From a virus: a stretch of DNA of 51,403 nucleotides. How positions within the stretch are numbered: the first letter of the stretch is position 1; every line of letters begins with the position of its first letter. Of the stretch, positions 13,817-50,985 are shown one piece after another. The position numbers were made by a program, and so were the translations under genes. The notes below the pieces were generated by a model. It had not been told where the DNA came from. It did not search any database and saw only the letters and a list, made by a program, of their open reading frames with translations. Location: positions 1 to 51,403 of IMG/VR virus record IMGVR_UViG_3300012936_003501. One strand, given 5' to 3'.

Positions 13817-14612
13817 TCCATGGAAAGAACTTGGAGTTAATCGAACTGCAAGTGAAGATGAAGTCAAACAAGCCTACAGACGTTTAGCAAAACAATATCA
13901 TCCTGACAAGCCGACGGGTAATGAAGAAAAGTTTAAGCGTGTTAGCGAGGCTTATGATATTATTAAGAACGGAGGTCCACAACAACCTAACAATCCGTTT
14001 CACCATCAGCAAGGACCAAATCCTTTTCAACAACGAAATCCTTTTGAAGGATTTGAAGATATATTTGCACAACAGTTTGGTGACTTTAGAAGACGTCCTC
14101 CGAGAAATAATGATACAAAAATACAAGTTGTAGTGTCACTAGAAGAAGTTGTTACACAAAGCACTAAAGTATTAGATTTAAAATTTCGTAACGGTAAAGG
14201 TAGACAAGTAAAAATAACATTACCTCCTGGACTAACACACGGTAGTGAAGTAAGATATGCACAATACGGAGAGAATACAATACCAGATGTACCCGCTGGA
14301 AGTTTATTTGTAACCTTTTTATTACAGCCTCATCGTGATTTTAAAGTTGAACATCACAATCTTATAAAAAGGTTAAATATTAGTATACGAGAAGCAATGG
14401 TAGGAACAGATAAAATTATAGATACGTTAGACGGTCGTAACTTAAAAATAAATATTAAGCCAGGAACGCAAGCAAAAACAAGATTGCGTATTCCAGAAGG
14501 CGGCTTACCAAGAAACAAGATGCCCAATGGTGATCTTTTCGTAGAATTAAACGTACAGATACCCGCACTCAACGAACAAGATTTAGATAAAAAATTACAA
14601 GATTTATTATAG
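13809..14612 (+). CDS. DnaJ-family co-chaperone (type B, no zinc finger)
   Basis: A 267-residue protein with an N-terminal J domain (residues 3-55; the HPD motif at 31-33), a Pro/Gln/Phe-rich linker (59-95), and two beta-sandwich substrate domains (KFRNGKGRQVKITLPPG..., FKVEHHNLIKRLNISIREAMVGT, RIPEGGLP). The CxxCxGxG zinc region of DnaJ is absent, so it resembles CbpA/type II J proteins. It would stimulate host DnaK. It directly precedes the ClpA-like gene, suggesting a protein-folding/turnover pair used in late infection. Confidence 0.9.
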   Translation: MNDPWKELGVNRTASEDEVKQAYRRLAKQYHPDKPTGNEEKFKRVSEAYDIIKNGGPQQPNNPFHHQQGPNPFQQRNPFEGFEDIFAQQFGDFRRRPPRNNDTKIQVVVSLEEVVTQSTKVLDLKFRNGKGRQVKITLPPGLTHGSEVRYAQYGENTIPDVPAGSLFVTFLLQPHRDFKVEHHNLIKRLNISIREAMVGTDKIIDTLDGRNLKINIKPGTQAKTRLRIPEGGLPRNKMPNGDLFVELNVQIPALNEQDLDKKLQDLL

Positions 14613-36858: not shown

Positions 36859-37119
36859 ATGCCTGTACGTTCTTTCAGTGATTCTGAAATCACGAAATTA
36901 AAACAAATTGTAAATGAAGGTATTCAAGTAACAAGCGAAATTGAAACACTAAAAGGTGGTCTAACAGATACTGTAAAAGCAGTAGCAGAAGAATTAGATA
37001 TGAAACCTAGTGTTATTAACAAAGCAATTCGTATTGCATATAAAAACGAATTTGCACAAGTCCAAGAAGGCTTTAGTCAAGTTGAAGAAGTGTTAGCGGC
37101 TGTTGGTAAAGATCATTAA
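36859..37119 (+). CDS. DsbA-like dsDNA-binding protein
   Basis: An 86-residue helical protein, ATG 36859 after AAAGGAGATGGCAT. Size and the segment KGGLTDTVKAVAEELDMKPSVINKAIRIAYKNEF (about 31-64, a helix-turn-helix-like region) fit T4 DsbA, the small late-transcription-associated double-stranded DNA-binding protein (89 residues). It would bind DNA near late promoters. Its stop overlaps the gp43 ATG, so it is coupled to the polymerase. Confidence 0.65.
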   Translation: MPVRSFSDSEITKLKQIVNEGIQVTSEIETLKGGLTDTVKAVAEELDMKPSVINKAIRIAYKNEFAQVQEGFSQVEEVLAAVGKDH

Positions 37120-39809
37120 TGTACGTAGACGCACATTTTGACAGAGACAAAGACATTATTTACGTAGCAGAACGTGTAAACGGACGCAGAGAATACAGAG
37201 AGTATCCTGCACGTTATACACTCTACTACAAAGATAATCGTGGCAAATACGAAAGTATTTTTGGCGATAAGTTAGAACGTTTTACAACTACAAATGGTAA
37301 AGCGTTCAAGAAAGAAAAGAAACTATATAGCGGTCAAACTTTATTTGAAAGTGATATTAACCCTGTTTTTAGATGTTTAGCAGACAATTATATTGGTAAA
37401 GAACCTCCTAAACTAAACACAGCATTTTTTGATATTGAGGTTGACTTTGATAAAGATAAAGGGTTTGCTGATCCTAGTGATCCTTTTAATCCAGTAACAG
37501 CAATTGCTGTACACCTAACTTGGTTACAAAGAACTATTTGTTTAGTTATTAAACCAGACACACTAACACGTGAAACTGCACAAGAGATTTGTAGCAAGTT
37601 TGATGATACACTATTAATGGATAGTGAACGTGAACTATTACAAACATTCTTAGATTTAATAGATGATGCAGATGTAATGAGTGGGTGGAACAGTGAAGGC
37701 TTTGATATTCCTTACATGGTCAATCGTATAGCAAGAGTTCTTGGTAAAGAATATACAAGACGCTTTTGTTTGTGGAATCAATATCCAAAGCGTAGAGAAT
37801 TTGAACGCTATGGTAAAGCACAAGAAACTTTTGATACAATCGGACGCTTACACTTAGACTACATGGAACTATATCGTAAGTATACATATCACGAAATGCA
37901 CAGTTACAGTTTAGATGCTATTGGCGAATATGAACTTGACGAGCGTAAAGTTGCATATCAAGGAACATTAGATCAATTGTATAACAATGATTTTTATACG
38001 TTCATTGACTATAACAGACAAGATGTTGACTTACTAGTTAAACTAGATGCTAAACTACAGTTCATTGATTTAGCAAACGTTATTGCACATGACAACACAG
38101 TGCTTGTACAAACAACAATGGGTGCAGTTGCAGTTACAGACCAAGCTATTGTAAATGAAGCACACAGACGTGGAATGATTGTGCCTGACAAACAACATGA
38201 CCGTATACAAACACATTACCCTAAACAAGTTGCGGCTGCCGGTGCATATGTTGCTACTCCTAAACGAGGACGTCACGAATGGATTGGTAGCATGGACTTA
38301 AACAGTCTGTATCCAAGTATCTTACGTAGTCTCAATTTGAGTACAGAAACTATTGTTGGACAAATACGTCATACACTAACAGTTCCATTATTAAATGAAC
38401 ATAAGTGGGAGCCTGCACGTGCATGGGAAGGAAAGTTTGCCTGTCCAGAATATGAACTTGTAATGGATAAAGACAATGAAACATTACTATATATTGACTT
38501 TGAAAACGGAGAAGAACTTCCTGCAACAGGCGCAGAAATATATAGTATAATCTTTGAAAGTGGACAGCCTTGGGTTCTTACAAGTAATGGTACAATTGTA
38601 GACCAAACTAAAAAAGGTATTATTCCTGGATTACTAGAGCGTTGGTATGCTGAACGTAAAGTTATGCAAAAAGACGCTAGAGAAGCTCAAGGTAAAGATG
38701 ATGCTAAGTTTGCTTATTGGGATAAACGACAACTAGTTAAAAAGATTAACTTGAACAGTTTGTATGGTGCGTTACTTAATCCTGGCAGTAGATTTAACGA
38801 TCCACGTATGGGACAATCAACTACACTAACAGGACGTACTATTGCTAGACATATGGGTGCAAGTGTAAACGAACTGTTTACAGGCGAGTACAATCATGTT
38901 GGTACTAGTATTATTTACGGTGATACAGATAGTGTATATTTTAGTGCGTATCCTATATTCAAAGATCAAATTGAAAATGGCGAGTTTGAATGGGATAAAG
39001 ACAAAGTTAGTGAATTATATGACACAGTTTGCGAACAAGCAAACACAACTTTTCCTGGATATATGGCACGAGCACATAATGTTCTCGATCAAAAGCAAGG
39101 TGAAATTATTGCGGCTGCTCGTGAAATGTGTGCAACAAGTGGTATTTTTATTAAAAAGAAACGCTATGCTATTCTTGTATATGATAACGAAGGCTTTAGA
39201 GAAGACTACGGAGATAAACCCGGCAAGATTAAAGCAATGGGTTTGGACTTGAAGCGCAGTGATACGCCAGCATTTATGCAAGACTTCTTGAATGAATTGT
39301 TGTTAATGACACTAACAGGTAGTAATGATACAGAGATTATAGATCGTATTATTGAGTTCAGACATGAATTTAGAGATAAAAAGCCTTGGGAAATTGGAAC
39401 ACCTAAGCGTGTTAATAAGTTAACTTACTATACAGACTTAGAGTGGGAAACTAGAGAAGGCAAAGAAGTATATAAAGGCAAAGCAAATATGCCAGGACAT
39501 GTCAGAGCCGCTATTAACTACAATAGATTACGTAGAGTAAATGGTGACCGTTATACTATGCAAATAATGGATGGCATGAAAACTATTGTATGTAAACTAA
39601 AAAATAATACAATGGGCTTTACTAGTATTGGATATCCAACAGATGAAATGATGATACCAGACTGGTTTAAAGAACTTCCGTTTGATACAGATGAAATGGA
39701 AGAAACAATTATCACAAAGAAGATTGAAAACTTACTAGGAGTTTTGGACATCGACTTAACTAAAGCAGAGGACAAAACTACATTTGATAGTTTATTTGAT
39801 TTTGGATGA
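37119..39809 (+). CDS. 43: DNA polymerase, family B (T4 gp43)
   Basis: An 896-residue polymerase matching T4 gp43 (898). The exonuclease motif I TAFFDIEVD lies near 104, Exo II MSGWNSEGFDIPY near 190, and Exo III YNRQDVDLL near 300. The polymerase motifs A SMDLNSLYPS (about 391-400), B KKINLNSLYG (about 541-550) and C YGDTDSVYF (about 600-608) are intact. It copies the phage genome with the clamp gp45. It must also tolerate any modified template bases made by the downstream operon. Complete, with no intein or intron seen. It overlaps the next gene by 4 nt. Confidence 0.97.
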   Translation: MYVDAHFDRDKDIIYVAERVNGRREYREYPARYTLYYKDNRGKYESIFGDKLERFTTTNGKAFKKEKKLYSGQTLFESDINPVFRCLADNYIGKEPPKLNTAFFDIEVDFDKDKGFADPSDPFNPVTAIAVHLTWLQRTICLVIKPDTLTRETAQEICSKFDDTLLMDSERELLQTFLDLIDDADVMSGWNSEGFDIPYMVNRIARVLGKEYTRRFCLWNQYPKRREFERYGKAQETFDTIGRLHLDYMELYRKYTYHEMHSYSLDAIGEYELDERKVAYQGTLDQLYNNDFYTFIDYNRQDVDLLVKLDAKLQFIDLANVIAHDNTVLVQTTMGAVAVTDQAIVNEAHRRGMIVPDKQHDRIQTHYPKQVAAAGAYVATPKRGRHEWIGSMDLNSLYPSILRSLNLSTETIVGQIRHTLTVPLLNEHKWEPARAWEGKFACPEYELVMDKDNETLLYIDFENGEELPATGAEIYSIIFESGQPWVLTSNGTIVDQTKKGIIPGLLERWYAERKVMQKDAREAQGKDDAKFAYWDKRQLVKKINLNSLYGALLNPGSRFNDPRMGQSTTLTGRTIARHMGASVNELFTGEYNHVGTSIIYGDTDSVYFSAYPIFKDQIENGEFEWDKDKVSELYDTVCEQANTTFPGYMARAHNVLDQKQGEIIAAAREMCATSGIFIKKKRYAILVYDNEGFREDYGDKPGKIKAMGLDLKRSDTPAFMQDFLNELLLMTLTGSNDTEIIDRIIEFRHEFRDKKPWEIGTPKRVNKLTYYTDLEWETREGKEVYKGKANMPGHVRAAINYNRLRRVNGDRYTMQIMDGMKTIVCKLKNNTMGFTSIGYPTDEMMIPDWFKELPFDTDEMEETIITKKIENLLGVLDIDLTKAEDKTTFDSLFDFG

Positions 39810-40045
39810 GAAGTTTAGATTTACATGGAAAACATATCCACGAAGCGTGGAAAATTGTTGACAAGTATATTGAACGGTGTTATTATGATAATTATAAATC
39901 TTGTGAAATTATTTGTGGGCAAGGTATAATACGTAATGAGATCGAAACTTGGCTCCACCTAAATAGATTTGTAAGAGAATACAGATTTAATACACGAACA
40001 CAAGGCAGTTACAACGTAACGTTAGTAAAAAGGAAACATAAATGA
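39806..40045 (+). CDS. Smr-domain protein, 79 aa
   Basis: ATG 39806 in a 4-nt overlap with gp43. LDLHGKHIHEAWKIVDKYIERC (4-25), EIICGQGIIRNEIETWL (34-50) and a final basic strand match a stand-alone Smr (small MutS-related) domain, with the LDLHG and GxG signatures. Smr domains nick or bind branched DNA and also act on RNA. The position between polymerase and clamp suggests a replication or recombination role. Confidence 0.82.
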   Translation: MRSLDLHGKHIHEAWKIVDKYIERCYYDNYKSCEIICGQGIIRNEIETWLHLNRFVREYRFNTRTQGSYNVTLVKRKHK

Positions 40046-40773
40046 GAGATTATCTACTCGATATTGTAAAACATACACATGGTGTAGGAAACATCGAAGC
40101 AGTTAAAGTTGTTAGTAACAGCGATACAACTGAAATTGAAGCAAAAGATGATAACAACTTTGTTGTTGTTAAAGCAAAATATAAAAGTGCTATCCCTGGT
40201 TTGGATGGTACATTTGGTATGCCTAACTTGAGCAAACTAAACATTCTTCTAAATATTGATGAATACAAAGAAAATGCAAACATTACTATTAACACACGTG
40301 ATCGTAATGGTGAATCGGAGCCTTTTAGTATGGCATTTGTAAATGCAACAGGCGACTTTAAAAACGATTTTCGTTTCATGCAAAAAGAACTAATGGAAGA
40401 AAAACTAGCAAGTGTACGTTTTAAAGGTGCTAATTGGGACGTCGAAGTAGAACCTCACAGTGCAAGTGTTGCTCGCTTTAAAATGCAAGCACAAGCTAAC
40501 AGCGAAGAGAGCTTGTTTGTTGCAAAAACTGACGGCACCGATCTAAAGTTTTTCTTTGGAGACGACAGTGGTCACACAGGTAATTTTGTATTCCAGCCAG
40601 AAATTGGCGGAGAGCTAAAGCAAAGCTGGAAATATCCAGTTGCAGAAGTTATGAATATTTTAAATCTAACTGGCAATATTACTATGAAGTTTAGTGATAT
40701 GGGTGCGGCAATGATTGAAGTAGATAACGGATTAGCTGTATATGAATATATCCTTCCAGCACAGAGTAAGTAA
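40042..40773 (+). CDS. 45: Sliding clamp (T4 gp45-like)
   Basis: A 243-residue protein (T4 gp45: 228), ATG 40042. The two-domain clamp pattern is visible: ANITINTRD.., then the second domain starting near 125 with VRFKGANWDVEVEP. Segments such as TDLKFFFGDDSGHTGNFVF and the C-terminal MIEVDNGLAVYEYILPAQS are typical of gp45. It tethers gp43 and, in T4, activates late transcription, which fits the T4-like late promoters here. Confidence 0.9.
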   Translation: MRDYLLDIVKHTHGVGNIEAVKVVSNSDTTEIEAKDDNNFVVVKAKYKSAIPGLDGTFGMPNLSKLNILLNIDEYKENANITINTRDRNGESEPFSMAFVNATGDFKNDFRFMQKELMEEKLASVRFKGANWDVEVEPHSASVARFKMQAQANSEESLFVAKTDGTDLKFFFGDDSGHTGNFVFQPEIGGELKQSWKYPVAEVMNILNLTGNITMKFSDMGAAMIEVDNGLAVYEYILPAQSK

Positions 40774-40932
40774 ATGGGTAAACATTTAAAAACTAAAATG
40801 GATTATGATATGATCTATGATTTTGCAAAAGAGATTGTAAAACTAGATCCAGACAATCCAGTTCTTGCAAAGTATCTACAAATGCAGAACTATGAAGGTG
40901 CTGAACTTAGGAAAGTATTAAAAGTTACATGA
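40774..40932 (+). CDS. Small hypothetical protein, 52 aa
   Basis: ATG 40774 immediately follows the gp45 stop, and its TGA overlaps the next ATG. Helical and charged (IYDFAKEIVKLDPDNPVLAKYL). Not recognised. Coupling to both the clamp and the DpdA-like gene supports translation. Confidence 0.6.
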   Translation: MGKHLKTKMDYDMIYDFAKEIVKLDPDNPVLAKYLQMQNYEGAELRKVLKVT

Positions 40933-42443
40933 CACAATTACCCACAAACTTAACAGATAGACAAGAAGACTTTGCTCTATTTTTACCTGCACTTAGTACG
41001 TTTTATGCATTATTTGTAGGTAGACAACGTAGAGGACTAGAGCCTTTTGATGAAAATAAAAAAGGTTCTGGTACACCATATATTGATTTGAATCGTATTC
41101 CAAGTAATTTAACAAATGGTGTTGAAAGTCTAAACTGGCTAGACAATAAAGGACTATGGCAATACAAGTGGAGTTTACACTCTGCTGGACATGCTAGTTT
41201 AGATTTAGAAAAAGATATGTATCGTGAAGATCAGTATCGTGTAAGAGATCGTTCAGCTAGTTGGCTGTTAGGTGATTCAGGTGGATTTCAAATTGGTAAA
41301 GGTAAGTGGGAAGGCGACTGGCGTAAAGGTAGTGGTTGTCCACAAGCACAAAAGAAACGTGAAGGTGTTCTTCGTTGGATGGACACTTTTATGGATTATG
41401 GAATGATACTTGATATTCCAGCTTGGGTAAGTCGTAGTCCGGAAGGTGCGGCGGCAAGTAAGATTGGTAGCTATCAACAAGCAGTCGAAGGTACACAACA
41501 AAACAACGAATACTTTATTAATAATCGTAACGGTGATTGTAAGTTTTTAAACGTACTACAAGGTGAAAACTTTGCACAAGCAGACGATTGGTATTCGCAA
41601 ATGAAACAGTATTGTGATCCTAAATTATATCCAGATGCACACTTTAACGGTTGGGCAATGGGTGGACAGAATATGTGCGATATTCATTTAGCATTAAAGC
41701 GTGTTGTTGAATTACGTTTTGACGGATTGTTAGAAAAAGGTTATCATGATGTAATGCACTTCTTGGGTACTAGTAAACTAGAATGGGCATTAGTACTTAC
41801 AGCAATACAACGTGGTATACGTAAAAACCATAATGAAAATTTTACTGTTACATTTGATTGTGCAAGTCCTTTTTTATGTACAGCAAATGGACAGTTTTAT
41901 ACAGGACACAGACTAGATCACAATGGTAAGTGGAGTTACATGATGGGAGATGCATTTGATGATCGCCAACTTGCAACAGATACTACACCTTATGATGATT
42001 ATGCAAAACAGTTTTGTGCAGATTATGGTCATACTTGGATGCCAACTCCTGTTACAGAAGGTATGAAAGTAAATGATATTTGCATTTATGCTCCTGGTGA
42101 TACAAACAGAATGGGTACAGAAACTAAAACATCGTGGGATAGTTTCGCTTATATGCTTATGATGAATCATAATACTTACACACATATTAATAGTGTACAA
42201 GCGGCAAATCGTGCTTATGATGATGGAGATTATCCTAACATGTTAGTTGATAACCGTTTTGATCGTACAGAAGTAAAAGATGTAATTGCACGTATCTTTG
42301 AGCTTGACGATAAGGAAAAAGCACTTAAAATGATAGATGACCATGAAAAACTTTGGATGATGGTTGTTGGGACTAGAGGTGCAGTAGGTAAGAAAACAGT
42401 TAACACTAGTGCTCAGTTTAATAGTTTATTTGAGGTAGCTTAA
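40929..42443 (+). CDS. dpdA: TGT/DpdA-family transglycosylase (7-deazaguanine DNA modification candidate)
   Basis: A 504-residue protein with the ordered motifs of tRNA-guanine transglycosylases and their DNA-acting DpdA relatives. These are WLLGDSGGFQIG (112-123, the substrate-base Asp), MILDIPAW (159-166), FLNVLQGEN (206-214), HFNGWAMGG (238-246), MHFLGTS (276-282) and TVTFDCASPF (306-315, nucleophile Asp310). The family exchanges a guanine for a 7-deazaguanine base. The CxCxxC...H zinc site of tRNA TGT is not seen, and the C-terminal 190 residues are novel to me. With FolE and a YhhQ transporter nearby, DNA is the likelier substrate. It overlaps neighbours by 1-4 nt. Confidence 0.82.
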   Translation: MTQLPTNLTDRQEDFALFLPALSTFYALFVGRQRRGLEPFDENKKGSGTPYIDLNRIPSNLTNGVESLNWLDNKGLWQYKWSLHSAGHASLDLEKDMYREDQYRVRDRSASWLLGDSGGFQIGKGKWEGDWRKGSGCPQAQKKREGVLRWMDTFMDYGMILDIPAWVSRSPEGAAASKIGSYQQAVEGTQQNNEYFINNRNGDCKFLNVLQGENFAQADDWYSQMKQYCDPKLYPDAHFNGWAMGGQNMCDIHLALKRVVELRFDGLLEKGYHDVMHFLGTSKLEWALVLTAIQRGIRKNHNENFTVTFDCASPFLCTANGQFYTGHRLDHNGKWSYMMGDAFDDRQLATDTTPYDDYAKQFCADYGHTWMPTPVTEGMKVNDICIYAPGDTNRMGTETKTSWDSFAYMLMMNHNTYTHINSVQAANRAYDDGDYPNMLVDNRFDRTEVKDVIARIFELDDKEKALKMIDDHEKLWMMVVGTRGAVGKKTVNTSAQFNSLFEVA

Positions 42444-43303
42444 TGCGTACACTTATAGTTGGCATGGGATTCGGTAAAGCAGTATATGGTAGCATATACG
42501 AACGAATGGGTTGGGATATTGCATATGTAGATCCTTACAACAAAGATGCTGACTATAGTGAAATCCCTGAAGAAGGTGCATTTTCTACTGCACATATTTG
42601 TACTCCAAATGTAACACACTATGAGTTAGCAGATAAAGCGGCAAAAGTTAGTGACATTGTGTTTGTAGAAAAGCCAGGTGTTAAAAATGTAGATCAATGG
42701 AACAAACTATGTACGTATAACCCTACAACAAGGTTTATGATGACTAAAAATAATCAGCATCGTTTTACTGAAAAAGAATGGTTAGACATCAAACAACGTG
42801 CAGAGGCCGCAGAAACTGTTAAGATATATTGGATTAACAGTGACAGAGTTCCAAGTCCTGGCGGTTGGTTTACAAATAAGAAAATAGCATATGGAGGAGT
42901 AAGTAGAGACTTACTTCCTCATTTGCTTAGTATCTATCAACTATTAGAAAAGAACTGGAAACATTCAGTTCGTACACAAGCAAGTTTAAATCAGTTTTGG
43001 ACACTAGATGATATGAAAAGAACTGATTACGGAAACGTAGATTTTAATGGCATATATGATGTAGATGACTTTTGTTTAGTAAAGTATCAAAAGTATGAAC
43101 TATGTGCTAATTGGAGAAGTGGCAACGGCGATGACTTTGCACTTTACTTAGATGATGACCGTATCGAACTAGGACCGTTGTGTCCTGAAAGTGCATATGA
43201 AAATATGATTAACACTGCAATCGATAACTGGAAAGATGATAACTTTTGGAAACTACAAAAGGAGATGGATCTATGGATACACCGACATGTGGCGACACTG
43301 TAA
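42443..43303 (+). CDS. Gfo/Idh/MocA-type NAD(P)-dependent oxidoreductase
   Basis: A 286-residue protein, ATG 42443. The N-terminal Rossmann fold has LIVGMGFGKAVYG (4-16), an acidic residue after strand 2, HICTPNVTHYELA (51-63) and DIVFVEKPGV (71-80), where EKP is the family signature. The C-terminal half holds the beta sheet with DRVPSPGGWFTNKKIAYGGVSRDLLPHLL. Such enzymes oxidise or reduce sugar nucleotides or inositols. Coupled to DpdA (overlap 1 nt) and overlapping an MDR dehydrogenase, it probably works on a sugar or polyol intermediate. Confidence 0.78.
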   Translation: MRTLIVGMGFGKAVYGSIYERMGWDIAYVDPYNKDADYSEIPEEGAFSTAHICTPNVTHYELADKAAKVSDIVFVEKPGVKNVDQWNKLCTYNPTTRFMMTKNNQHRFTEKEWLDIKQRAEAAETVKIYWINSDRVPSPGGWFTNKKIAYGGVSRDLLPHLLSIYQLLEKNWKHSVRTQASLNQFWTLDDMKRTDYGNVDFNGIYDVDDFCLVKYQKYELCANWRSGNGDDFALYLDDDRIELGPLCPESAYENMINTAIDNWKDDNFWKLQKEMDLWIHRHVATL

Positions 43304-44163
43304 GAGCTCTTACTACAGACGGTCAAGGTGCTTTCTTTGAAAGCGAATATAAAATACCAGAATTAAACAAAGGCGATATAATTGTAAAAGCCGCTATGAC
43401 TGGAGTATGTCGTAGTGACGTTGCAATGATGCAAGGCGAGTTTCAGCTATTGCCGCCAAGTATGCACGGACATGAAGGGCTAGGTATTAATACAGCAACA
43501 GGAAAATATGTTGCAACACGTGGCGAACCTGCGTATGCAGATTATTATGTTGCACGTGAAGGCACATATATTACAGTACCTGAGCTTGATCCTAAATATA
43601 TTGCAGAGCCTGTTGCATGTGGAATAAATGTTGTACTTAACAGTTTAGAAGAATTAAAACATCGTGAAGGTGGTAAAGTTCTTATATTAGGTACAGGCTT
43701 TTTAGCACGTATTGTACATCAAACTATAAAAGAATTACATTTAGATTATGATAATATTACAGTTGTAGGAAATAGTAATCAAGATTATTGGAAAGTAACA
43801 CTAGCAGAACCAAATACTACAGAGTACGATGTTGTAATTGATTTAAGTGATAAACACAATCTTATGAGAACAGAAGTTGCAGAAAATGCATTAGTAATTA
43901 TGGCGGCTGAAAAAGCAGAACCAATAATGACTAATTTTAGTAGTTGGCTTTGGAAGAATGTAACTATGCACTTTCCAAGTCCACGCAGTGAAATGTTTGT
44001 ACAGTCAATGGTATATGCAGTTACATGGACATTACAAGAAAAATTAAACCTTGACAATATATGGACTAAAGGTTATAATAGAGAAACAGAATGGAAACAA
44101 GCCTTCGAGGATGCAGTTAATAGACCTGAAGGCTATAGCAGAGGTTATATCAAATGGGATTAG
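43273..44163 (+). CDS. Zinc-type medium-chain dehydrogenase (alcohol/sorbitol dehydrogenase-like)
   Basis: A 296-residue MDR protein. Start at ATG 43273 (GGAG 8 nt upstream), overlapping the previous gene by 31 nt. Catalytic zinc ligands are plausible: Cys46 in GVCRSD, His67-Glu68 in GHEG, and Glu112 in AEPVACG. The nucleotide site is VLILGTGFLA (136-145). The four-Cys structural zinc loop is missing and the protein is shorter than usual (about 340). It would oxidise an alcohol or polyol. Position suggests a shared pathway with the Gfo/Idh/MocA enzyme, cytidylyltransferase and glycosyltransferase. Confidence 0.78.
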   Translation: MDTPTCGDTVRALTTDGQGAFFESEYKIPELNKGDIIVKAAMTGVCRSDVAMMQGEFQLLPPSMHGHEGLGINTATGKYVATRGEPAYADYYVAREGTYITVPELDPKYIAEPVACGINVVLNSLEELKHREGGKVLILGTGFLARIVHQTIKELHLDYDNITVVGNSNQDYWKVTLAEPNTTEYDVVIDLSDKHNLMRTEVAENALVIMAAEKAEPIMTNFSSWLWKNVTMHFPSPRSEMFVQSMVYAVTWTLQEKLNLDNIWTKGYNRETEWKQAFEDAVNRPEGYSRGYIKWD

Positions 44164-44663
44164 ATACAGACGAACGTCAAGATGTAGTTTACTTTATTGG
44201 TAATGAAATTGAAAACACAGCAATGAAAGGTGAGAAAACACTATTTGTAGTTGGTGTTCGAGATTCAAAAGAAATTGCACAAAAGGCAGATGAACATAAA
44301 ATTAAACATCTATACTTTGGTACAAGTCAAAGTTTTACTCCTCGATCAGATGATGATTATGAATCATGGACAAATATGATTATACCATTGCTTAAAGAAG
44401 GATATTGGTGTACACTAGACTTTGGTGTAGAACATGCTCCTAAGGTATTAGAATGTGGGTTTGATGAATATGATAACTATATTAGTATGATAAGTGTTAA
44501 ACTTCCATACATCAAACAATTTAATTACAATGCAACACTTAAACTAGATGACACAACTTGGGGATATAGTAATCCAGGTGTATGGTGTCATAGTTTACAT
44601 GAGTTGCAAAAGCGCAGAGTTTATACAGACTGGCGTGAATATGTAGGAGACACAGTAGTTTGA
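44154..44663 (+). CDS. Hypothetical protein, 169 aa
   Basis: ATG 44154 overlaps the dehydrogenase by 10 nt. Alternating strands and helices (KTLFVVGVRDSKEIAQKADEH, KIKHLYFGTSQSF, GYWCTLDFGVEHAP) look like a partial barrel or Rossmann-type fold. It ends with a conserved-looking NPGVWCHSLHELQKRRVYTDW. No motif for radical SAM (no CxxxCxxC), so it is not QueE. Its place in the operon suggests a role in the same pathway. Confidence 0.68.
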   Translation: MGLDTDERQDVVYFIGNEIENTAMKGEKTLFVVGVRDSKEIAQKADEHKIKHLYFGTSQSFTPRSDDDYESWTNMIIPLLKEGYWCTLDFGVEHAPKVLECGFDEYDNYISMISVKLPYIKQFNYNATLKLDDTTWGYSNPGVWCHSLHELQKRRVYTDWREYVGDTVV

Positions 44664-45115
44664 ATAAAGTAGGATTCACATGTAGTACATTTGATTTACT
44701 TCATGCAGGACATGTCATAATGTTACGTGAAGCTAAAGAACATTGTGATTACTTAATAGTTGGTCTCCAGACTGATCCAACTATTGATAGACCGGGTGAT
44801 AAGAATAAACCGGTACAAAGTTTAGTTGAGCGTTATGCACAACTAAGCGCAGTAGAATATGTAGATGAAATTATCCCATATGAAACGGAACAAGACTTAG
44901 TTGATATTCTAACCATGTATCACATTAATATGCGAGTACTAGGAGAAGAATATCGTGAGAAAGATTTTACTGGTAAAGAGATTTGCCGCAAACGTGGTAT
45001 TGAATTATACTTTAATAAAAGAGATCATAGATTCAGTACAAGTGACCTAAGGGAAAGAGTTGAACATGCCCCAAGACAAACTGCCACTGTTAAAAAGTTT
45101 GGAAACCAAACATAA
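44660..45115 (+). CDS. Cytidylyltransferase (TagD/glycerol-3-phosphate cytidylyltransferase-like)
   Basis: A 151-residue nucleotidyltransferase from TTG 44660 (TTGA overlap with the upstream stop; GGAG 10 nt before). FTCSTFDLLHAGHVIMLREA (6-25) holds the HxGH motif (HAGH 15-18), DYLIVGLQTD follows, and RFSTSDLRERV (near 124) is the RxSTT-like signature. It would join CMP to glycerol phosphate or another phospho-alcohol or sugar phosphate, producing a CDP-activated donor. A GT-B transferase encoded 1.5 kb downstream could use an activated donor. Confidence 0.85.
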   Translation: MNKVGFTCSTFDLLHAGHVIMLREAKEHCDYLIVGLQTDPTIDRPGDKNKPVQSLVERYAQLSAVEYVDEIIPYETEQDLVDILTMYHINMRVLGEEYREKDFTGKEICRKRGIELYFNKRDHRFSTSDLRERVEHAPRQTATVKKFGNQT

Positions 45116-45248
45116 AGAACTTGACGAAAAAATAAAACAGTTGTATAAACATACTAATGCAGAATTAAGTCTTAAACAGTTGAAAAAACAAAAGTTAAAA
45201 CTTAAAGAACAAATTGAAACCGTTAAAAAGGAAATAACAAATGGTTAA
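45066..45248 (+). CDS. DUF465 (YdcH-like) small coiled-coil protein, 60 aa
   Basis: ATG 45066 after AGGGAAAGAG, overlapping the cytidylyltransferase by 50 nt; TTG 45060 is in frame. The pattern LLKSLETKHKELDEKIKQL, then LKQLKKQKLKLKEQI, fits the helical DUF465 hairpin. Function unknown. Overlaps the next gene by 8 nt. Confidence 0.68.
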   Translation: MPQDKLPLLKSLETKHKELDEKIKQLYKHTNAELSLKQLKKQKLKLKEQIETVKKEITNG

Positions 45249-45411
45249 GAAAATTAGAGTAATTGACGAACCTGTAGCAGAACCTGCTTCAGAAACATCC
45301 ATGGAAGCGTTCATGGAACTTGCAAAAACTATGGATTGGAAACTATGGGAAATTTTGCAAATCATGCAACGAGTAGAGAAAAAACTATCAGTTACTGATG
45401 ACGAGAAATAA
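45241..45411 (+). CDS. Small hypothetical protein, 56 aa
   Basis: ATG 45241, 8-nt overlap with the preceding gene; its stop directly abuts the next ATG at 45412. Acidic, with a helical C-terminal half (MEAFMELAKTMDWKLWEIL). Not recognised. Confidence 0.58.
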   Translation: MVKKIRVIDEPVAEPASETSMEAFMELAKTMDWKLWEILQIMQRVEKKLSVTDDEK

Positions 45412-45855
45412 ATGCAGGAAAGATACTATACGTATATGCTCAGACGTATGCGTGAGGAAGATGCAAAAATGAAAACTCTTAAAAAAACAAGTACAAGTAT
45501 TTGGGTTACATTTAGTAAAGAAGGATTACACAAGTATCCTGCGGCACTAGATGATCCTAAACTTGCAACAAACGATGAGTATGATGTAAGTTTCTTAGGT
45601 TACATACATCGTCATATATTTCACTTTAAAGTTGAAATCGAAGTATTCCACGACGATAGAGACATTGAATTTATCCAATTTAAACGTTGGCTAGAAAAAC
45701 TATATGCAGAGAAAACACTGCAACTTGACTTTAAATCCTGTGAGATGATCTGTGATGATCTTGCAGAAACAATTAACAACAAATATCCAGATCGCAAAAT
45801 GACAATTACTGTAAGCGAGGATAATGAAAATGGAGCAACGTGTAGCTATGAATAA
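45412..45855 (+). CDS. Divergent QueD/6-pyruvoyl-tetrahydropterin synthase-like protein
   Basis: A 147-residue protein, ATG 45412, whose layout fits the T-fold PTPS/QueD family. VTFSKEGLHKYPAA offers His40 where QueD has its AAH histidine. YIHRHIFHFKVEIEV offers His66 and His68, like the HGHNY zinc pair. IEFIQFKRWLEKL (85-97) resembles the DF..LK helix, KSCEMICDDL (108-117) resembles the NPTxE segment with Glu111, and ITVSEDNENGA (132-142) resembles the final strand with the substrate Glu. QueD makes 6-carboxytetrahydropterin from the FolE product. The catalytic Cys is not obvious. Fold assignment is inference from pattern. Confidence 0.5.
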   Translation: MQERYYTYMLRRMREEDAKMKTLKKTSTSIWVTFSKEGLHKYPAALDDPKLATNDEYDVSFLGYIHRHIFHFKVEIEVFHDDRDIEFIQFKRWLEKLYAEKTLQLDFKSCEMICDDLAETINNKYPDRKMTITVSEDNENGATCSYE

Positions 45856-46168
45856 GCTATCAACTGATATTCGTAGCGTTCGACAAGGGCGTGTAAGTGT
45901 AAACGACATCAAGTGGGATCTTATTAAGATCATCGAACCATTTGATGGTATCCTAGCAACTAACAGAGGTAGTGAAGAAACTATCCATAAGTTGTTTGGA
46001 TCATATTTAAGTGACTTGCGTTATGCAGGTTTAATTCAAAGTTACGAGATTAATGGAATAATCCGTGACACTGCTATTACTTACGATGTAAGTGTAAAAC
46101 TTAGTGCAGACCGTAGTGCTAAGAAACTTAAAATTCACGTAGGTGTATATCAATCTAAGGCAGCTTGA
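45824..46168 (+). CDS. Hypothetical protein, 114 aa
   Basis: ATG 45824 (alternatives 45830 and 45848) after AGCGAGG; it overlaps the QueD-like gene by 32 nt. FDGILATNRGSEETIHKLFGS and YLSDLRYAGLIQSYE form a helical core, followed by beta strands. Looks conserved in style with marine T4-like phage proteins, function not known to me. Confidence 0.65.
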   Translation: MKMEQRVAMNKLSTDIRSVRQGRVSVNDIKWDLIKIIEPFDGILATNRGSEETIHKLFGSYLSDLRYAGLIQSYEINGIIRDTAITYDVSVKLSADRSAKKLKIHVGVYQSKAA

Positions 46169-47268
46169 TGACTGTATATATAGTTGATATTGAAGCGGTA
46201 GATACTCGATACACAAAACAGTGGAAAGAGTATCTACCTAAACAATTACAAAAACATACTGATAATGTAGTTGTTATCAGCGGAGGAGATATTCCACATG
46301 CCACTACGCCGGGTGCGTTCCTCAACTTCGGAGGAACAAATGTTTACAAATCAAATCAATTACAACAAATTGCCACACTATTTTGTGAAGGTAAAATACA
46401 TGATGGTGATTATTTTCTTTATACAGATGCTTGGAATCCTACTGTTATTCAGCTCAAATACATGGCAGGTCTTCTTAATACAGATATTACTGTCGGTGGC
46501 ATGTGGCATGCAGGCAGTTATGATCCACAAGATTTTCTCGGAAGATTAATTGGCGATGCGGCATGGGTACGTAGTGCAGAAAAAAGTATGTTCCACTGTT
46601 ATGATCATAACTTCTTTGCAACTGAATTTCATGTAAAATTGTTTGCAGAAAACTTACTACAGTTTAAAGGTATGTTTGGACTTACTCCTGCTGAATGGTT
46701 AGAACAACAAGACAACGTACATATTGTTGGTTGGCCAATGGAGTATCTACGTGATACAATGCTTCCATATAAAAATATGGAAAAGAAAAATACAATTGTT
46801 TTTCCACATAGACTTGCTCCAGAAAAGCAATTAGATATATTCAAAGATTTAGAACAAGAATTACCAGAGTATGAGTTTATTGTATGTCAAGAACAAGAAT
46901 TGACAAAACAAGAATATCATAATATACTTGGAGAAGCTAAAATAGTGTTTAGTGCTAACTTGCAAGAAACACTAGGAATTAGTGCATATGAAGCAATGCT
47001 TGTAGGTGCTATTCCAATGGTTCCCGATCGTCTGAGTTATACAGAAATGTATGATGAAGAATTTAAGTATCCAAGTGAATGGACTGAAGATTGGGATAGC
47101 TACACAACACATAAAACTAAAGTAGTTGAAAAAATTCGTGGTTATATAGATAGATACGACAACTATAATAATTACCTAAATAGCAATGCAGTATCATTAG
47201 GTGAAAAGTTTTTTAGTGGTAGCAAACTTTATGAAATAATTACTACAGAAGAAAAGGAAACTAAATGA
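46168..47268 (+). CDS. GT-B glycosyltransferase (group 1 type)
   Basis: A 366-residue protein; ATG 46168 lies in a TGATG junction (an in-frame TTG sits at 46165). The C-terminal Rossmann half shows TIVFPHRLAPEKQLDIFKDL (about 211-230), IVFSANLQETLGISAYEAML (about 263-282) with the E-x7-E pattern, and VGAIPMVPDRLSYTEM. The N-terminal half is less typical. It transfers a sugar, or a related activated group, to an acceptor. In this operon the acceptor could be a modified base in DNA, by analogy with T4 glucosylation. A surface glycan is the alternative. Confidence 0.8.
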   Translation: MTVYIVDIEAVDTRYTKQWKEYLPKQLQKHTDNVVVISGGDIPHATTPGAFLNFGGTNVYKSNQLQQIATLFCEGKIHDGDYFLYTDAWNPTVIQLKYMAGLLNTDITVGGMWHAGSYDPQDFLGRLIGDAAWVRSAEKSMFHCYDHNFFATEFHVKLFAENLLQFKGMFGLTPAEWLEQQDNVHIVGWPMEYLRDTMLPYKNMEKKNTIVFPHRLAPEKQLDIFKDLEQELPEYEFIVCQEQELTKQEYHNILGEAKIVFSANLQETLGISAYEAMLVGAIPMVPDRLSYTEMYDEEFKYPSEWTEDWDSYTTHKTKVVEKIRGYIDRYDNYNNYLNSNAVSLGEKFFSGSKLYEIITTEEKETK

Positions 47269-47471
47269 AAGTTGGAGACGCATTAATTGAAGCCGCTAAA
47301 AAGCAAGCAGAAGGCGAGATTGCAGTACATAAAGCAAACATCGAAGTCTACAGAGCCATGCCAGCAGGTATAGGTGAACATAGTGATGTCTGCGAAGCTA
47401 TAATCGACGAGCTTGATAAGTTGGCGGCCGCTAGTGATCGACTTGAAATGATAGACAAGCACTTTGATTAA
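47265..47471 (+). CDS. Small hypothetical protein, 68 aa
   Basis: ATG 47265 in a 4-nt overlap. Two helices (IEAAKKQAEGEIAVHKANIEVYRAM and CEAIIDELDKLAAASDRLEMI) suggest a coiled-coil accessory. A short ACACG/CGTGT hairpin (47481-47496) follows. Unknown function. Confidence 0.62.
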   Translation: MKVGDALIEAAKKQAEGEIAVHKANIEVYRAMPAGIGEHSDVCEAIIDELDKLAAASDRLEMIDKHFD

Positions 47472-47512
47472 AGATTTTAAACACGTTTCGCCGTGTATAA
47501 CTAGGAGCAAAA

Positions 47513-48202
47513 ATGAGTAAAGTACAAGAAATAAAAACAAAACTTGAAGAGGCAGGTATTAGGTACTGGGCTAATGATAATATTAGTTCAGTACTTAATG
47601 AAGGCGACAAACAAGCAATTATCGAAGAAGCAGTACCTGCTTTTGAAAATGTATTACAAACGTTATTGATTGATACAAAGACAGACCCTAACAGTATGGA
47701 TACTGCAAGACGTATGGCTAAGATGTATGTTAATGAAATTATGTCTGGTCGTTATGATGCAATGCCCAATCCTAGTGCATTTCCTAACTATATTGAAAAT
47801 GGTTATGAAGGCATGTTGGTTGTGCGTAGCGAACTTACAAGTTTGTGTTCGCACCATCACCAAACAGTAAAAGGTGTTGCATACATTGGTATTCTTGCAG
47901 GTCCTAAACTATTGGGACTTAGTAAATACACACGTATTGCACAATGGTGTGCTATGCGTGGAACACTACAGGAAGAACTTAACGTTATGATTGCAGACGC
48001 TATTCAAGAACAAACAGGTTCTAATGATGTTGGTGTTTATGTTCAAGCAACACATGGTTGTTGTGAAAACAGAGGTATTAGAGCTCATAGTAGTTTAACA
48101 CAAACTACAGTGTTGCGTGGTGCATTTAAGGATGACCCCGGAACTAAAAAAGAATTTATTGATAATGTAAAACTTCAGCAAGAGTTTGCCGCTGGTAGAT
48201 AA
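47513..48202 (+). CDS. folE: GTP cyclohydrolase I
   Basis: A 229-residue T-fold enzyme that converts GTP to dihydroneopterin triphosphate, the first step of both folate and 7-deazaguanine (preQ0) synthesis. Zinc ligands fit Cys112 and the histidines in SLCSHHHQTVKG (110-121), plus Cys183 in THGCCENRGI (180-189). LLGLSKYTRIAQWCAMR (133-149) and SSLTQTTVLRGAF (193-205) are family segments. The length is usual. RBS TAGGAGC before ATG 47513. Its companions here (QueD-like protein, DpdA-like transglycosylase, YhhQ) favour deazaguanine over folate use. Confidence 0.92.
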   Translation: MSKVQEIKTKLEEAGIRYWANDNISSVLNEGDKQAIIEEAVPAFENVLQTLLIDTKTDPNSMDTARRMAKMYVNEIMSGRYDAMPNPSAFPNYIENGYEGMLVVRSELTSLCSHHHQTVKGVAYIGILAGPKLLGLSKYTRIAQWCAMRGTLQEELNVMIADAIQEQTGSNDVGVYVQATHGCCENRGIRAHSSLTQTTVLRGAFKDDPGTKKEFIDNVKLQQEFAAGR

Positions 48203-48210
48203 ACTTATCG

Positions 48211-48218
48211 AATAAATA
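48211..48218 (+). promoter_or_regulatory. Late promoter element AATAAATA before yhhQ
   Basis: AATAAATA 9 nt after the folE stop, with a start predicted near 48224 inside the first leader hairpin. Confidence 0.58.
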
Positions 48219-48220
48219 CC

Positions 48221-48275
48221 CACGTATTACAAAGTTTGAAATACGTGAAAGTTGTAAGAATTATTTTTACAACTT
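48221..48275 (+). promoter_or_regulatory. Two-hairpin leader upstream of yhhQ
   Basis: CACGTATT (48221-48228) pairs with AATACGTG (48240-48247), and AAGTTGTAA (48249-48257) pairs with TTACAACTT (48267-48275). Together they fill the first half of the 105-nt gap before ATG 48308. No T run, so not terminators. A regulatory leader is likely; a ligand is not shown. Confidence 0.55.
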
Positions 48276-48307
48276 CAACATTAACTAGCATAGGGAGAAT
48301 TAATAAT

Positions 48308-48925
48308 ATGTTTAGTAAACTTTTAGACGGTGTAGATACAAAATTAATACGTAATCTTGTAATTCTACATACACTTGTAATTGCAGTAAGTAATTACTTG
48401 GTAACAATTAGATTTAATGTGTTTCCTGGTGCAGACCTACCATTGTTTGGTGAGTTTCCACTAGCGGCGGCGGCATTTACATTTCCAATTGTAGTTGTTG
48501 CGACCGACTTAACAGTACGTTTAGTTGGTAAAGAAGCAGGTAGAGCTGTTGTTGCTATGGCAATTATACCGGCTATTGTTGCATCAGTACTTGTGCTATT
48601 AGCATTAGGTGATGAACATGCATACAGAGTAGGTTTAGCATCAGGTGTAGCTTATGCAGTGGGAACGATGCTTGACGTATATGTATTTCAACATATTCGT
48701 GAGCGTATGAATACATGGTGGGTTGCTCCAGCAGTATCAACTATTGCGGCAAACATTATTGATACATATGCTTTCTTTTATACAGCATTTTATCCTGCAC
48801 CTTGGGTTGCGGACGTAGCATTTAATAATACCCTAACAAAAATTGTAGTAGGACTAATTGTGTTCTTACCAGCATACGGAGTACTACTCAACTGGTTGTC
48901 AAAACGACGATCTGAAAACACTTAA
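48308..48925 (+). CDS. yhhQ: YhhQ/VUT-family queuosine precursor transporter
   Basis: A 205-residue inner-membrane protein with about six transmembrane segments. Start at ATG 48308, with AGGGAGA 9 nt upstream; an in-frame TTG at 48236 would lie across the leader hairpins. FPLAAAAFTFPIVVVATDLTVRLVGKEAGR (about 51-80, given here by its FTFP...TDL..R..G...A core) and TIAANIIDTYAFFYTAF are signatures of the VUT/YhhQ family, which imports preQ0, preQ1 or queuine. A phage copy would supply 7-deazaguanine precursor to the DpdA-like enzyme. Ends at a strong terminator. Confidence 0.88.
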   Translation: MFSKLLDGVDTKLIRNLVILHTLVIAVSNYLVTIRFNVFPGADLPLFGEFPLAAAAFTFPIVVVATDLTVRLVGKEAGRAVVAMAIIPAIVASVLVLLALGDEHAYRVGLASGVAYAVGTMLDVYVFQHIRERMNTWWVAPAVSTIAANIIDTYAFFYTAFYPAPWVADVAFNNTLTKIVVGLIVFLPAYGVLLNWLSKRRSENT

Positions 48926-49018: not shown

Positions 49019-50119
49019 ATGAAACTATTTAAATTAATAACCGCATCAATCGTGTTGATGTGGTCTTTTGGCTTGACTGCCATTGCAGGAGAAGCAAAGG
49101 ACAAAGTAACAGTTGGATTTGTCTATGTGGGACCAACAGGTGACCATGGATGGACGTACAGACACGACATCGGTCGTAAACAAATTGAAGAAGCTTTTGG
49201 CGACAGAGTAGAAACAAGATTTGTAGAGTCAGTTGCATACGGAGCAGATTCTACTCGTGTGTTTACACAAATGGCTATGCAAGGTGTAGACATTATTTTT
49301 GGAACGAGTTTTGGATATATGGATCCAATGCTAGAAGTAGCAGAAAAATTTCCAAACACAAAGTTTGAACATGCAACAGGTTATAAAACCAATGGCACTA
49401 ATATGGCTAATTATGGCTTGCGCCTCTATCAAGCAAGACACGTACAAGGTGTTATTGCAGGTATGATGACAAAAACTAATAAAATTTGTTATGTGGCGGC
49501 ATACCCAATTCCAGAAGTAGTGCGTGAAATTAACACATATTACTTAGGTGCTAAAAGCGTTAATCCAGATGTAGATATTGATATTGTTTGGGTGTATACT
49601 TGGTATGATCCAGGCAAAGAAAAAGATGCCGCAGATGCATTATTTAACAACGGTTGTGATGTAATTGCACAGCATACAGATTCCCCTGCTCCATTACAAG
49701 CGGCGGAATCGAGAGGACTTGTAGGCTTTGGACAAGCAAGTGACCAAATTGGTTTTGCTCCTAAAGCACAGTTGACAGCAACAATTGACAACTGGGGACC
49801 TTACTATATTGAAAAAGTAAGACAAGTACTAGAAGGTACATGGACACCGATGTGTGATGGACCAGACGGTTGTTACTTTGGACATATGAATGATGGATCA
49901 GTTGGAATGGCTCCATTTACAAATATGCCAGCAGATGTAGAAGCTAAAGCACAAGCAGTCAAGGATGCTATCCGTGATGGTGAGTATTTTGCTTTTACAG
50001 GTCCAATTTACGATAACCAAGGTAATCTACAAATTGCCGCAGGTGAAGTTGCTGACCGAGGACATCTAGATAGTATGATGTACTATGTAGAAGGTATAGA
50101 TGCGGAGTTGCCTAAATGA
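49019..50119 (+). CDS. BMP-family ABC-transporter substrate-binding protein
   Basis: A 366-residue secreted protein. Residues 1-23 are a signal peptide (KLFKLITASIVLMWSFGLTAIAG). The mature part has the basic membrane protein/purine nucleoside receptor layout: VGFVYVGPTGDHGWTYRHDIG, GVDIIFGTSFGYMDPML, FEHATGYKTN, ARHVQGVIAGMMTKT, VYTWYDPGKEKDAADALFNNGCDVIAQHTDS and VGFGQASDQIGFAP. The family binds nucleosides or related purines in the periplasm and passes them to a host ABC permease. Phage-encoded periplasmic binding proteins are known for phosphate (PstS); a BMP one is unusual. Coupled by 4 nt to a 2OG oxygenase. Confidence 0.9.
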   Translation: MKLFKLITASIVLMWSFGLTAIAGEAKDKVTVGFVYVGPTGDHGWTYRHDIGRKQIEEAFGDRVETRFVESVAYGADSTRVFTQMAMQGVDIIFGTSFGYMDPMLEVAEKFPNTKFEHATGYKTNGTNMANYGLRLYQARHVQGVIAGMMTKTNKICYVAAYPIPEVVREINTYYLGAKSVNPDVDIDIVWVYTWYDPGKEKDAADALFNNGCDVIAQHTDSPAPLQAAESRGLVGFGQASDQIGFAPKAQLTATIDNWGPYYIEKVRQVLEGTWTPMCDGPDGCYFGHMNDGSVGMAPFTNMPADVEAKAQAVKDAIRDGEYFAFTGPIYDNQGNLQIAAGEVADRGHLDSMMYYVEGIDAELPK

Positions 50120-50985
50120 TACCAATAATTGATTTACAAGCAAAAGACGCTTTAGATCGAATTGACGAAGCCTACACTACTGTAGGCTTCGCAGTCTTTC
50201 AAAATGCGTTACCAGAACAAGAACAAAAATTATTAAACGACTGGTTCGACGACATGAAGGCTTTCTTTGAATTGCCATTAGAAACAAAAAAGAAATATCC
50301 TTATGAAGGTGATACTAATTTAGGGTATAGTATTATGGGTGCAGAAAATGTAGATCCTACAGCACCGAAAGATATGAAAGAAAGTTTTAACTACAATAAT
50401 ATGCGTATGCCAGAACATTTATGGCCTACTGAACTAGATACTTTTAAACAAAGTGCGCTAACTAGTGTTAGAATTGCAGATGATTTAACACTTAATATCT
50501 TAGGAATGTTTGATCATATTTTAGGAACTGAAGGTTTAATAACTAAAGCACACGAAGTACCATTTAATACGACACGTGTAATTCACTATCCTGCATATGA
50601 TGGTCCTATTGAGAATAAACAAATGCGTATTGGTGAACATAGCGACTATGGTACAATTACATTATTATGGCAGATTAATGATGTTCCAGGTCTTCAAGTA
50701 CAAGATTTAGAAGGTAATTGGCATCCAGTACCATATGCAGAAGATAGTGTTGTTGTCAATATTGGCGACTTACTACAACGTTGGACAAATGATTATTTCA
50801 AATCAACTAAACATAGAGTTGTTAATACTCATATACATCAAGAACGTTTTAGTATGCCACACTTTGTTGATCCTACACCAGGAACAATGATTGATCCAGC
50901 ACAAGTTCGAAAAACGGAAACACCAAAGTATCCACCAATCGAATCAAAAGAATATTTGATGTGGCGGTTAGCACAGAGTTACTAA
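50116..50985 (+). CDS. 2OG-Fe(II) oxygenase, isopenicillin-N-synthase-like
   Basis: A 289-residue protein in an ATGA overlap with the BMP gene. An N-terminal DIOX_N-type segment (PIIDLQAKDALDRIDEAYTTVGFAVFQNA, then LPLETKKKYPYEG and NLGYSIMG) is followed by the double-stranded beta-helix core. Metal ligands are the His and Asp of IGEHSDYGTITLL (about 175 and 177) and the His of KSTKHRVVN (about 233); the 2OG-binding RFSMPHF follows. The family hydroxylates small molecules. Linkage to a nucleoside-binding protein suggests a purine, nucleoside or deazapurine substrate, which is inference. Confidence 0.88.
   Translation: MIPIIDLQAKDALDRIDEAYTTVGFAVFQNALPEQEQKLLNDWFDDMKAFFELPLETKKKYPYEGDTNLGYSIMGAENVDPTAPKDMKESFNYNNMRMPEHLWPTELDTFKQSALTSVRIADDLTLNILGMFDHILGTEGLITKAHEVPFNTTRVIHYPAYDGPIENKQMRIGEHSDYGTITLLWQINDVPGLQVQDLEGNWHPVPYAEDSVVVNIGDLLQRWTNDYFKSTKHRVVNTHIHQERFSMPHFVDPTPGTMIDPAQVRKTETPKYPPIESKEYLMWRLAQSY

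Follow-up and report, generated by a model that had tools for sequence, protein, structure and literature searches.

A viral gene cassette joining a DpdA-type transglycosylase to a glycosyltransferase that may hypermodify guanine in phage DNA

Does a viral gene cassette that encodes a guanine transglycosylase together with a glycosyltransferase build a hypermodified base into the virus's own DNA? This question is raised by IMG/VR record IMGVR_UViG_3300012936_003501, a linear fragment of 51.4 kb (51,403 nucleotides) that we analyzed over its full length and refer to here as the window. An earlier note on this DNA had proposed a 7-deazaguanine DNA-modification operon comprising genes for a DpdA-type member of the tRNA-guanine transglycosylase (TGT) superfamily, a QueD/PTPS-like protein, the GTP cyclohydrolase I FolE and a YhhQ-type transporter, located downstream of gp43- and gp45-like genes with no terminator in between. 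Each of these genes is present where it had been placed, FolE and the transporter score above curated cut-offs, and a DpdA-type operon is still the best reading of the locus on the basis of protein fold, profile links and synteny with QueE and FolE; the notions that its QueD is a normal one and that preQ0 is the likely base fared less well, as described below. The same interval also encodes two proteins that had gone unmentioned, a glycosyltransferase (46165-47268) and a 169-amino-acid (aa) protein (44154-44663). Modification of DNA by DpdA systems and its protective effect are established (PMC6884629), and what is added here is the glycosyltransferase and two further conserved proteins. We estimate a probability of roughly 0.5 that the cassette hypermodifies guanine in the DNA of the phage itself through insertion of a deazaguanine, which is likely, followed by its glycosylation, which is plausible, and there is a real chance that the product is a new DNA hypermodification. 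The basis for this explanation is computational and consists of gene content, predicted folds, active-site conservation and linkage.

The 504-aa protein at the head of the cassette (40929-42443, + strand) returned no match in Pfam, PHROG, NCBIfam, PADLOC or PDB sequence searches. We therefore turn to its AlphaFold model, which was built from 40 relatives and has a predicted local distance difference test score (pLDDT) of 85 and a predicted template modeling score of 0.87. Comparison of this structure with TGT and DpdA proteins, a check proposed together with the operon, matched TGT folds and several phage DpdA types: the top PDB folds were bacterial TGT entries and human QTRT1, each with a probability of 1.00 and with TM-scores that were modest when taken over the query length (0.35-0.38), while matches in BFVD comprised TGT-like proteins of Vibrio phage nt-1 (DpdA2), Motura, phiST, a mycobacteriophage and an archaeal rod-shaped virus, and included a 596-aa protein of the same size as that of Vibrio phage 2.275.O. 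Profile comparisons linked the family to the GR7B/Motura TGT (96.9%, E = 2e-10), which in Motura sits inside a queD-queC-TGT-queE-folE cluster, and, through profiles only, to a four-member DpdA2 set that includes nt-1 (91.7%, E = 8e-7), with the DSGGFQ, LDIP, LQG, HFLG and FDCASP motifs in register. The corresponding value for the phiST-type TGT profile was 2.9%, and no sequence link to the DpdA of Enterobacteria phage 9g was detectable. D116 and D310, the catalytic aspartate pair of the DSGGF and FDxASP motifs, are invariant in 16 sequences, and the CxCxxC zinc motif of tRNA-acting TGTs is missing from the window protein. Because of its TGT fold, its profile matches, its invariant aspartate pair and the missing zinc motif, the protein appears to be a DpdA-type enzyme in a subfamily of its own.

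We consider DNA to be the likely substrate of this enzyme. The alternative is that it exchanges bases in tRNA to make queuosine-like nucleosides, which the glycosyltransferase would convert into a glycosylated Q-type nucleoside, such that the cassette tunes translation during infection. The TGT superfamily was founded on tRNA enzymes, tRNA TGTs are its nearest matches among solved folds, and animals possess GT4-type enzymes that glycosylate the queuosine of tRNA. Against this stand the absence of the CxCxxC signature from 109 of 110 viral open reading frames (ORFs) of the family, with one ORF retaining it, the identity of the nearest structural relatives, which are phage DpdA-type proteins, and the genomic setting, in which the cassette adjoins genes for a gp43-like family B DNA polymerase (37119-39809, + strand) and a gp45-like sliding clamp (40042-40773, + strand) and no tRNA gene was found in the window. 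On balance a role in tRNA modification seems improbable.

From gp45 to the transporter all genes lie on the + strand, are collinear and mostly overlap or are tightly spaced. A 52-aa ORF (40774-40932, + strand) fills the gap between gp45 and the 504-aa gene, overlapping the ATG of the latter through an ATGA, and a scan of this junction revealed no convincing terminator, in agreement with what had been proposed. The same gene order was found in 30 IMG/VR loci initially and in approximately 100 following a profile search, and a recurrence of this kind is more than chance would produce; the system is spread over at least 578 IMG/VR stretches. Counts of gene content refer to 59 loci from IMG/VR in which the sequence continues for 6 kb or more past the TGT gene, a partly redundant set that was found through the TGT itself. 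Every one of these loci (59/59) encodes the 169-aa protein together with a QueD-like protein and a glycosyltransferase; a gp45-like clamp gene immediately precedes the cassette in 57, and a gp43-like polymerase gene lies upstream in 52.

The QueD-like core component (45412-45855, + strand; likely start 45469, giving 128 aa) matches phrog_17812 (1e-32), and its label as a QueD/PTPS relative has weak support from sequence. Its zinc-binding histidines are kept, whereas support from the PHROG QueD family is weak (E = 0.11 for the window protein and 0.0067 for the best relative), there is no match to Pfam PTPS, a PF01242 search misses the gene in relatives, and the catalytic cysteine is missing. 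In an alignment of 37 sequences, including those of phiST, ACP17, X1, BUCT-ZZ01, PA5oct, Phosso and Rhizobium phage RHph_I1_18, the zinc ligands H21, H47 and H49 as well as H61, C91, E92 and E117 are invariant, and the position of the QueD nucleophile, four residues before the HxH motif, is occupied by an invariant leucine, Leu43. The segment that holds the Asp-His pair of QueD is shorter in this protein, a profile comparison with 15 QueD sequences gave a weak match in the expected register (34%, E = 4e-4), and a profile search of the PDB returned only a weak, sensible alignment to archaeal PH0634 (E = 0.58). Loss of the catalytic cysteine rules out an ordinary QueD, and for this reason we regard the protein as a probable derived T-fold enzyme rather than a QueD. 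It could still be a genuine but divergent QueD, which would reduce the cassette to a CDG (7-carboxy-7-deazaguanine) pathway without QueC; retention of the HxH zinc site and terminal glutamate would fit this idea, as would the many QueE-bearing contigs that have no canonical QueD. We find it improbable given the invariant leucine, the missing Asp-His segment and the presence of a canonical QueD in addition to the QueD-like protein in six phages (ACP17, phiST, RHph_I1_18, BUCT-ZZ01, PA5oct and Phosso). The window protein and its phiST homologue share 27.9% identity over 99% of their length (E = 1e-7). In phiST-type phages a CDG decarboxylase was reportedly named DpdL by Cui et al. in 2023, and the QueD-like protein probably belongs to this DpdL family.

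The 367-aa glycosyltransferase (46165-47268, + strand) matches Glycos_transf_1 with an E-value of 1.8e-4, below the curated cut-off, and carries an E-x7-E motif, as is typical for GT4 enzymes of the retaining kind: E267 and E275 are invariant across 31 sequences, as are R215, E219 and K220 in the family. The 169-aa protein (44154-44663, + strand) has a homologue in ACP17 (E = 7e-39) and yields a model with a pLDDT of 85.5, for which a fold search gave no significant match, with scattered partial alpha/beta and barrel alignments; comparison of its profile with those of QueE, TGT, QueD and the glycosyltransferase was negative, and profile searches of the PDB with either protein found no meaningful match. 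Conserved to the same extent as the transglycosylase, the two proteins point to a further modification step. Second GT4-like proteins, whose N-termini look alike by eye, occur near the TGT in cyanophage BUCT-ZZ01 (L041, 9367-10710) and in Shimia ponticola (L265, 11035-12228), and the Shimia copy has a Pfam match.

Linkage was also assessed from the side of the glycosyltransferase. A reverse search anchored on the divergent enzyme of BUCT-ZZ01 collected 80 loci, or 81 with that of ACP17, and these viral loci encode the QueD-like protein in 76 cases, the window-type TGT in 74, the 169-aa protein in 69 and FolE in 60; searches anchored on the X1 and ACP17 enzymes found no relative other than ACP17 itself. 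Among 50,697 isolate phage records the family occurs in 20, all of which encode a TGT that belongs to one or another of three subfamilies. The QueD-like gene is present as well in 16 of them; the remaining four (PhiXhv phages and Ep032) carry a GR7B-type TGT, and in PhiXhv-15 the glycosyltransferase lies two genes away from a protein that combines an amidotransferase-like N-terminal part with QueC as its C-terminal half. These observations bear on the possibility that the locus is a plain DpdA system that inserts CDG, 7-deazaguanine or imported preQ0 or preQ1 with no sugar, the glycosyltransferase being a mere neighbor that alters, for example, surface polysaccharide. Known DpdA systems function without a glycosyltransferase (PMC6884629), glycosyltransferase clusters of cyanophages were assigned to polysaccharide change by Iyer et al. 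(PMC7824862), and phiST and RHph_I1_18 have the QueD-like gene without this glycosyltransferase family. We nonetheless judge a plain system unlikely, because the glycosyltransferase tracks the genes for the QueD-like protein and the TGT across PA5oct-like phages, Phosso, ACP17, X1, BUCT-ZZ01 and the marine phages, and in doing so its pairing with the QueD-like protein meets two DpdA subfamilies, the window type (PA5oct, Phosso) and the nt-1 type (ACP17, X1, BUCT-ZZ01).

Bacterial chromosomes provide a second line of evidence against a chance neighbor. Across 84,980 species genomes that were scanned, the TGT family was present on 45 contigs; several of the best matches look viral, with the full phage cassette, and the others are mainly from Alphaproteobacteria. 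At eight alphaproteobacterial loci (L236, L239, L257, L260, L264, L265, L267 and L268) the TGT gene lies beside genes for a VUT-type transporter and a glycosyltransferase of the same family, adjoined by a large Pfam-less protein and often by a 190-aa tyrosine recombinase, which indicates that importer, transglycosylase and glycosyltransferase are linked outside phages as well. Further genomes carry the TGT alone or with the large Pfam-less protein only, and PADLOC models gave no match among the islands scanned. The glycosyltransferase is otherwise very rare: it was found in 0/384 other genomes of the same class and in one of 393 other genomes of the same family, where a TGT lies about 200 bp away, the TGT being present in two of these 393. 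The near-absence of the family from alphaproteobacterial genomes taken at random also makes it unlikely that a common surface-sugar enzyme was caught by chance. More tentatively, and at less than even odds, we propose that the phages and the alphaproteobacterial islands with this trio carry a glycosylated 7-deazaguanine in their DNA, with the sugar possibly attached directly at C7 or at the 7-carboxyl; no description of this class of DNA hypermodification was found in the literature searched.

Which base would be inserted depends on the synthesis genes at hand. FolE (47513-48202, + strand) scores 127 against a cut-off of 27 bits with PF01227 and is present in 55/59 relatives. QueE and QueC had both been described as absent, which is correct for QueC insofar as none was recognized in the window and misleading for QueE, which is missing because the 51.4-kb fragment ends. 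QueE is carried downstream of FolE on the contigs of 16/17 marine relatives, which excludes a phage that lacks it, and occurs in 34/59 IMG/VR loci; in the closest relative (L002, TGT 95% identical) it starts 10.3 kb after the start of the TGT, the point at which the window ends, and the window carries two extra genes that push its expected position further out. The three cysteines of QueE are conserved in our alignment with an insertion before the third, and the CxxxCxxC pattern is therefore not matched. Canonical QueD is found in a minority of the long contigs with the cassette. Canonical QueC is clear only in Vibrio phage 2.275.O, and PF06508 exceeds its cut-off in a single relative of the marine cassette, where the protein is divergent. 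Because canonical QueC is missing in nearly all relatives, preQ0 is not supported as the likely base, and we consider a base derived from CDG somewhat better than an even bet.

Five marine relatives (L144, L145, L146, L147 and L049) encode divergent QueC-like PP-loop proteins far from the cassette. These end in a QueC-like cysteine motif of the type SCE...CxxCxWCxER.WAxG and are possibly a separate nucleotide-modifying enzyme. In Vibrio phage 2.275.O (L033, 11908-18934) a window-type TGT accompanies canonical QueC, QueF, VUT, FolE and QueE, with no glycosyltransferase or QueD-like gene of the cassette kind in the stretch examined, and this system is probably a preQ1- or G+-type version. The transporter of the window (48236-48925, + strand), a YhhQ/VUT-type queuosine-precursor transporter found in 9/59 relatives, exceeds the cut-offs of TIGR00697 (97 against 51 bits) and Vut_1 (73 against 27 bits) and falls below that of the preQ0/preQ1 transporter equivalog NF008406 (143 against 252).

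Comparison with known systems places the cassette near several of them. DpdA2 of Vibrio phage nt-1, of the preQ0/G+ type, is likewise a TGT-fold enzyme encoded near FolE and 7-deazaguanine genes in a large T4-like phage, and its DSGG, D-x-P, HxLG and D-S motifs align with those of the window TGT. Unlike the window, nt-1 encodes QueC along with a PTPS/QueD protein, and its examined stretch contains no annotated glycosyltransferase or QueD-like protein of the cassette kind; TGTs of the window type form a subfamily apart, which only profiles (91.7%) and fold connect to DpdA2. The Pseudomonas jumbo phages typified by PA5oct are closer, with adjacent genes for the TGT, glycosyltransferase and QueD-like protein, 34, 46 and 55-59% identical to the window proteins, and with QueE nearby, and differ in having no homologue of the 169-aa protein in the stretch examined and a canonical QueD elsewhere in the genome. 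In a 2021 paper the PA5oct genes were already termed a deazaguanine synthesis and incorporation system, and its passages on PA5oct leave the adjacent glycosyltransferase unmentioned (PMC7824862). A literature search, with most subscription papers and preprints outside its reach, found no paper linking a glycosyltransferase to DpdA. Phages phiST and ACP17 share the QueD-like protein with the same key residues and have FolE, QueD and QueE, whereas their TGTs are of other subfamilies (DpdA2-type in ACP17 and a 259-aa type in phiST) and phiST does not have this glycosyltransferase family. The DpdA of phage 9g (G+) belongs to the same enzyme superfamily and embodies the same biological idea, but could not be linked to the window TGT by sequence, and its cluster has Gat-QueC and QueD with no annotated glycosyltransferase. 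Finally, the alpha- and beta-glucosyltransferases of T4, which act on hydroxymethylcytosine, also place a sugar on a modified phage DNA base and serve as a working analogy only: the base is different, no cytosine hydroxymethylase was recognized in the window, and the T4 enzymes belong to other glycosyltransferase families than the GT4-like enzyme.

In the mechanism we favor, of insertion followed by glycosylation, FolE, QueE and a host- or phage-encoded QueD would produce CDG, with precursor import by the YhhQ-type transporter as an alternative supply. The QueD-like zinc protein, which appears to keep the zinc site and the glutamate that anchors the 2-amino-pyrimidinone without the nucleophile of QueD, would act, possibly as a decarboxylase, on CDG or on what is made from it. 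The DpdA-type transglycosylase would then swap guanine in DNA for the modified base behind the replisome encoded just upstream, and the GT4-like enzyme would glycosylate the inserted base or a side group, using an activated sugar supplied by the host or by phage nucleotidyltransferases. DNA modified in this manner would be shielded from nucleases. CDG synthesis and base exchange rest on well-established families, and the QueD-like and glycosyltransferase steps on residue conservation and linkage; glycosylation of the inserted base, taken by itself, is a possibility to which we assign slightly under even odds.

Several points weigh against this proposal. The 504-aa protein has no direct sequence-level match to named DpdA family models, and it could act on tRNA instead, just as the GT4-like enzyme could modify another acceptor. 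The QueD-like protein may perform a QueD-type job, as several long cassette-bearing contigs are without canonical QueD, and divergent PP-loop proteins resembling QueC are encoded at a distance in a few relatives. Moreover, if the QueD-like protein removes the 7-carboxyl, the resulting base would offer no obvious oxygen or nitrogen handle for a sugar, and a carbon or ring heteroatom would be needed.

The interval also contains three accessory genes on the + strand. Directly after the transglycosylase are a GFO/IDH/MocA-type oxidoreductase (42443-43303; Pfam, 31 against a cut-off of 24 bits) and a zinc alcohol dehydrogenase-like protein (43246-44163, its start probably downstream of 43246; ADH_N, 27.9 against 23.5 bits), each in 19/59 relatives. 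A cytidylyltransferase-like or heptose-1-phosphate adenylyltransferase-like nucleotidyltransferase (44660-45115; 30/59 relatives) exceeds the PF01467 cut-off (59 against 21 bits), matches TIGR02199 at 3e-23, under the cut-off of that model, and is a candidate sugar-donor enzyme. Beside the transporter are genes for a BMP/PnrA-type ABC substrate-binding protein with a signal peptide (49019-50119; NCBIfam ABC_BMP_B6, 5e-15, below cut-off), kept in at least five relatives, and, by reading, for a 2-oxoglutarate/Fe(II) oxygenase-like protein (50116-50985) with 70-71% identity in three relatives. Elsewhere in the window, translations alone suggest a ClpA/B-type chaperone ATPase (14673-16904), a DnaJ-like protein (13809-14612), a subtilisin-like protease (715-1857) and a dihydroorotate dehydrogenase-like ORF (32-718). 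The cassette DNA has no close relative at the nucleotide level among isolate phages. Because the nearest isolate homologue of the gp43-like polymerase is that of the Sinorhizobium jumbo phage Phosso (49%) and contigs bearing related cassettes reach 302 kb, the window is probably a piece of a marine, T4-like jumbo phage.

Relative to known phage 7-deazaguanine modification, this version of the cassette has a glycosyltransferase and two more conserved proteins as additions. It is widespread in viral metagenomes and recurs on bacterial chromosomes beside recombinases, where it has no recognized defense annotation. PA5oct-like phages grow on P. aeruginosa PAO1, and the prediction is therefore directly testable. 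If the sugar is real, the cassette would connect two kinds of DNA modification so far treated separately, and it would provide new enzymes for DNA labeling together with a new shield against nucleases.

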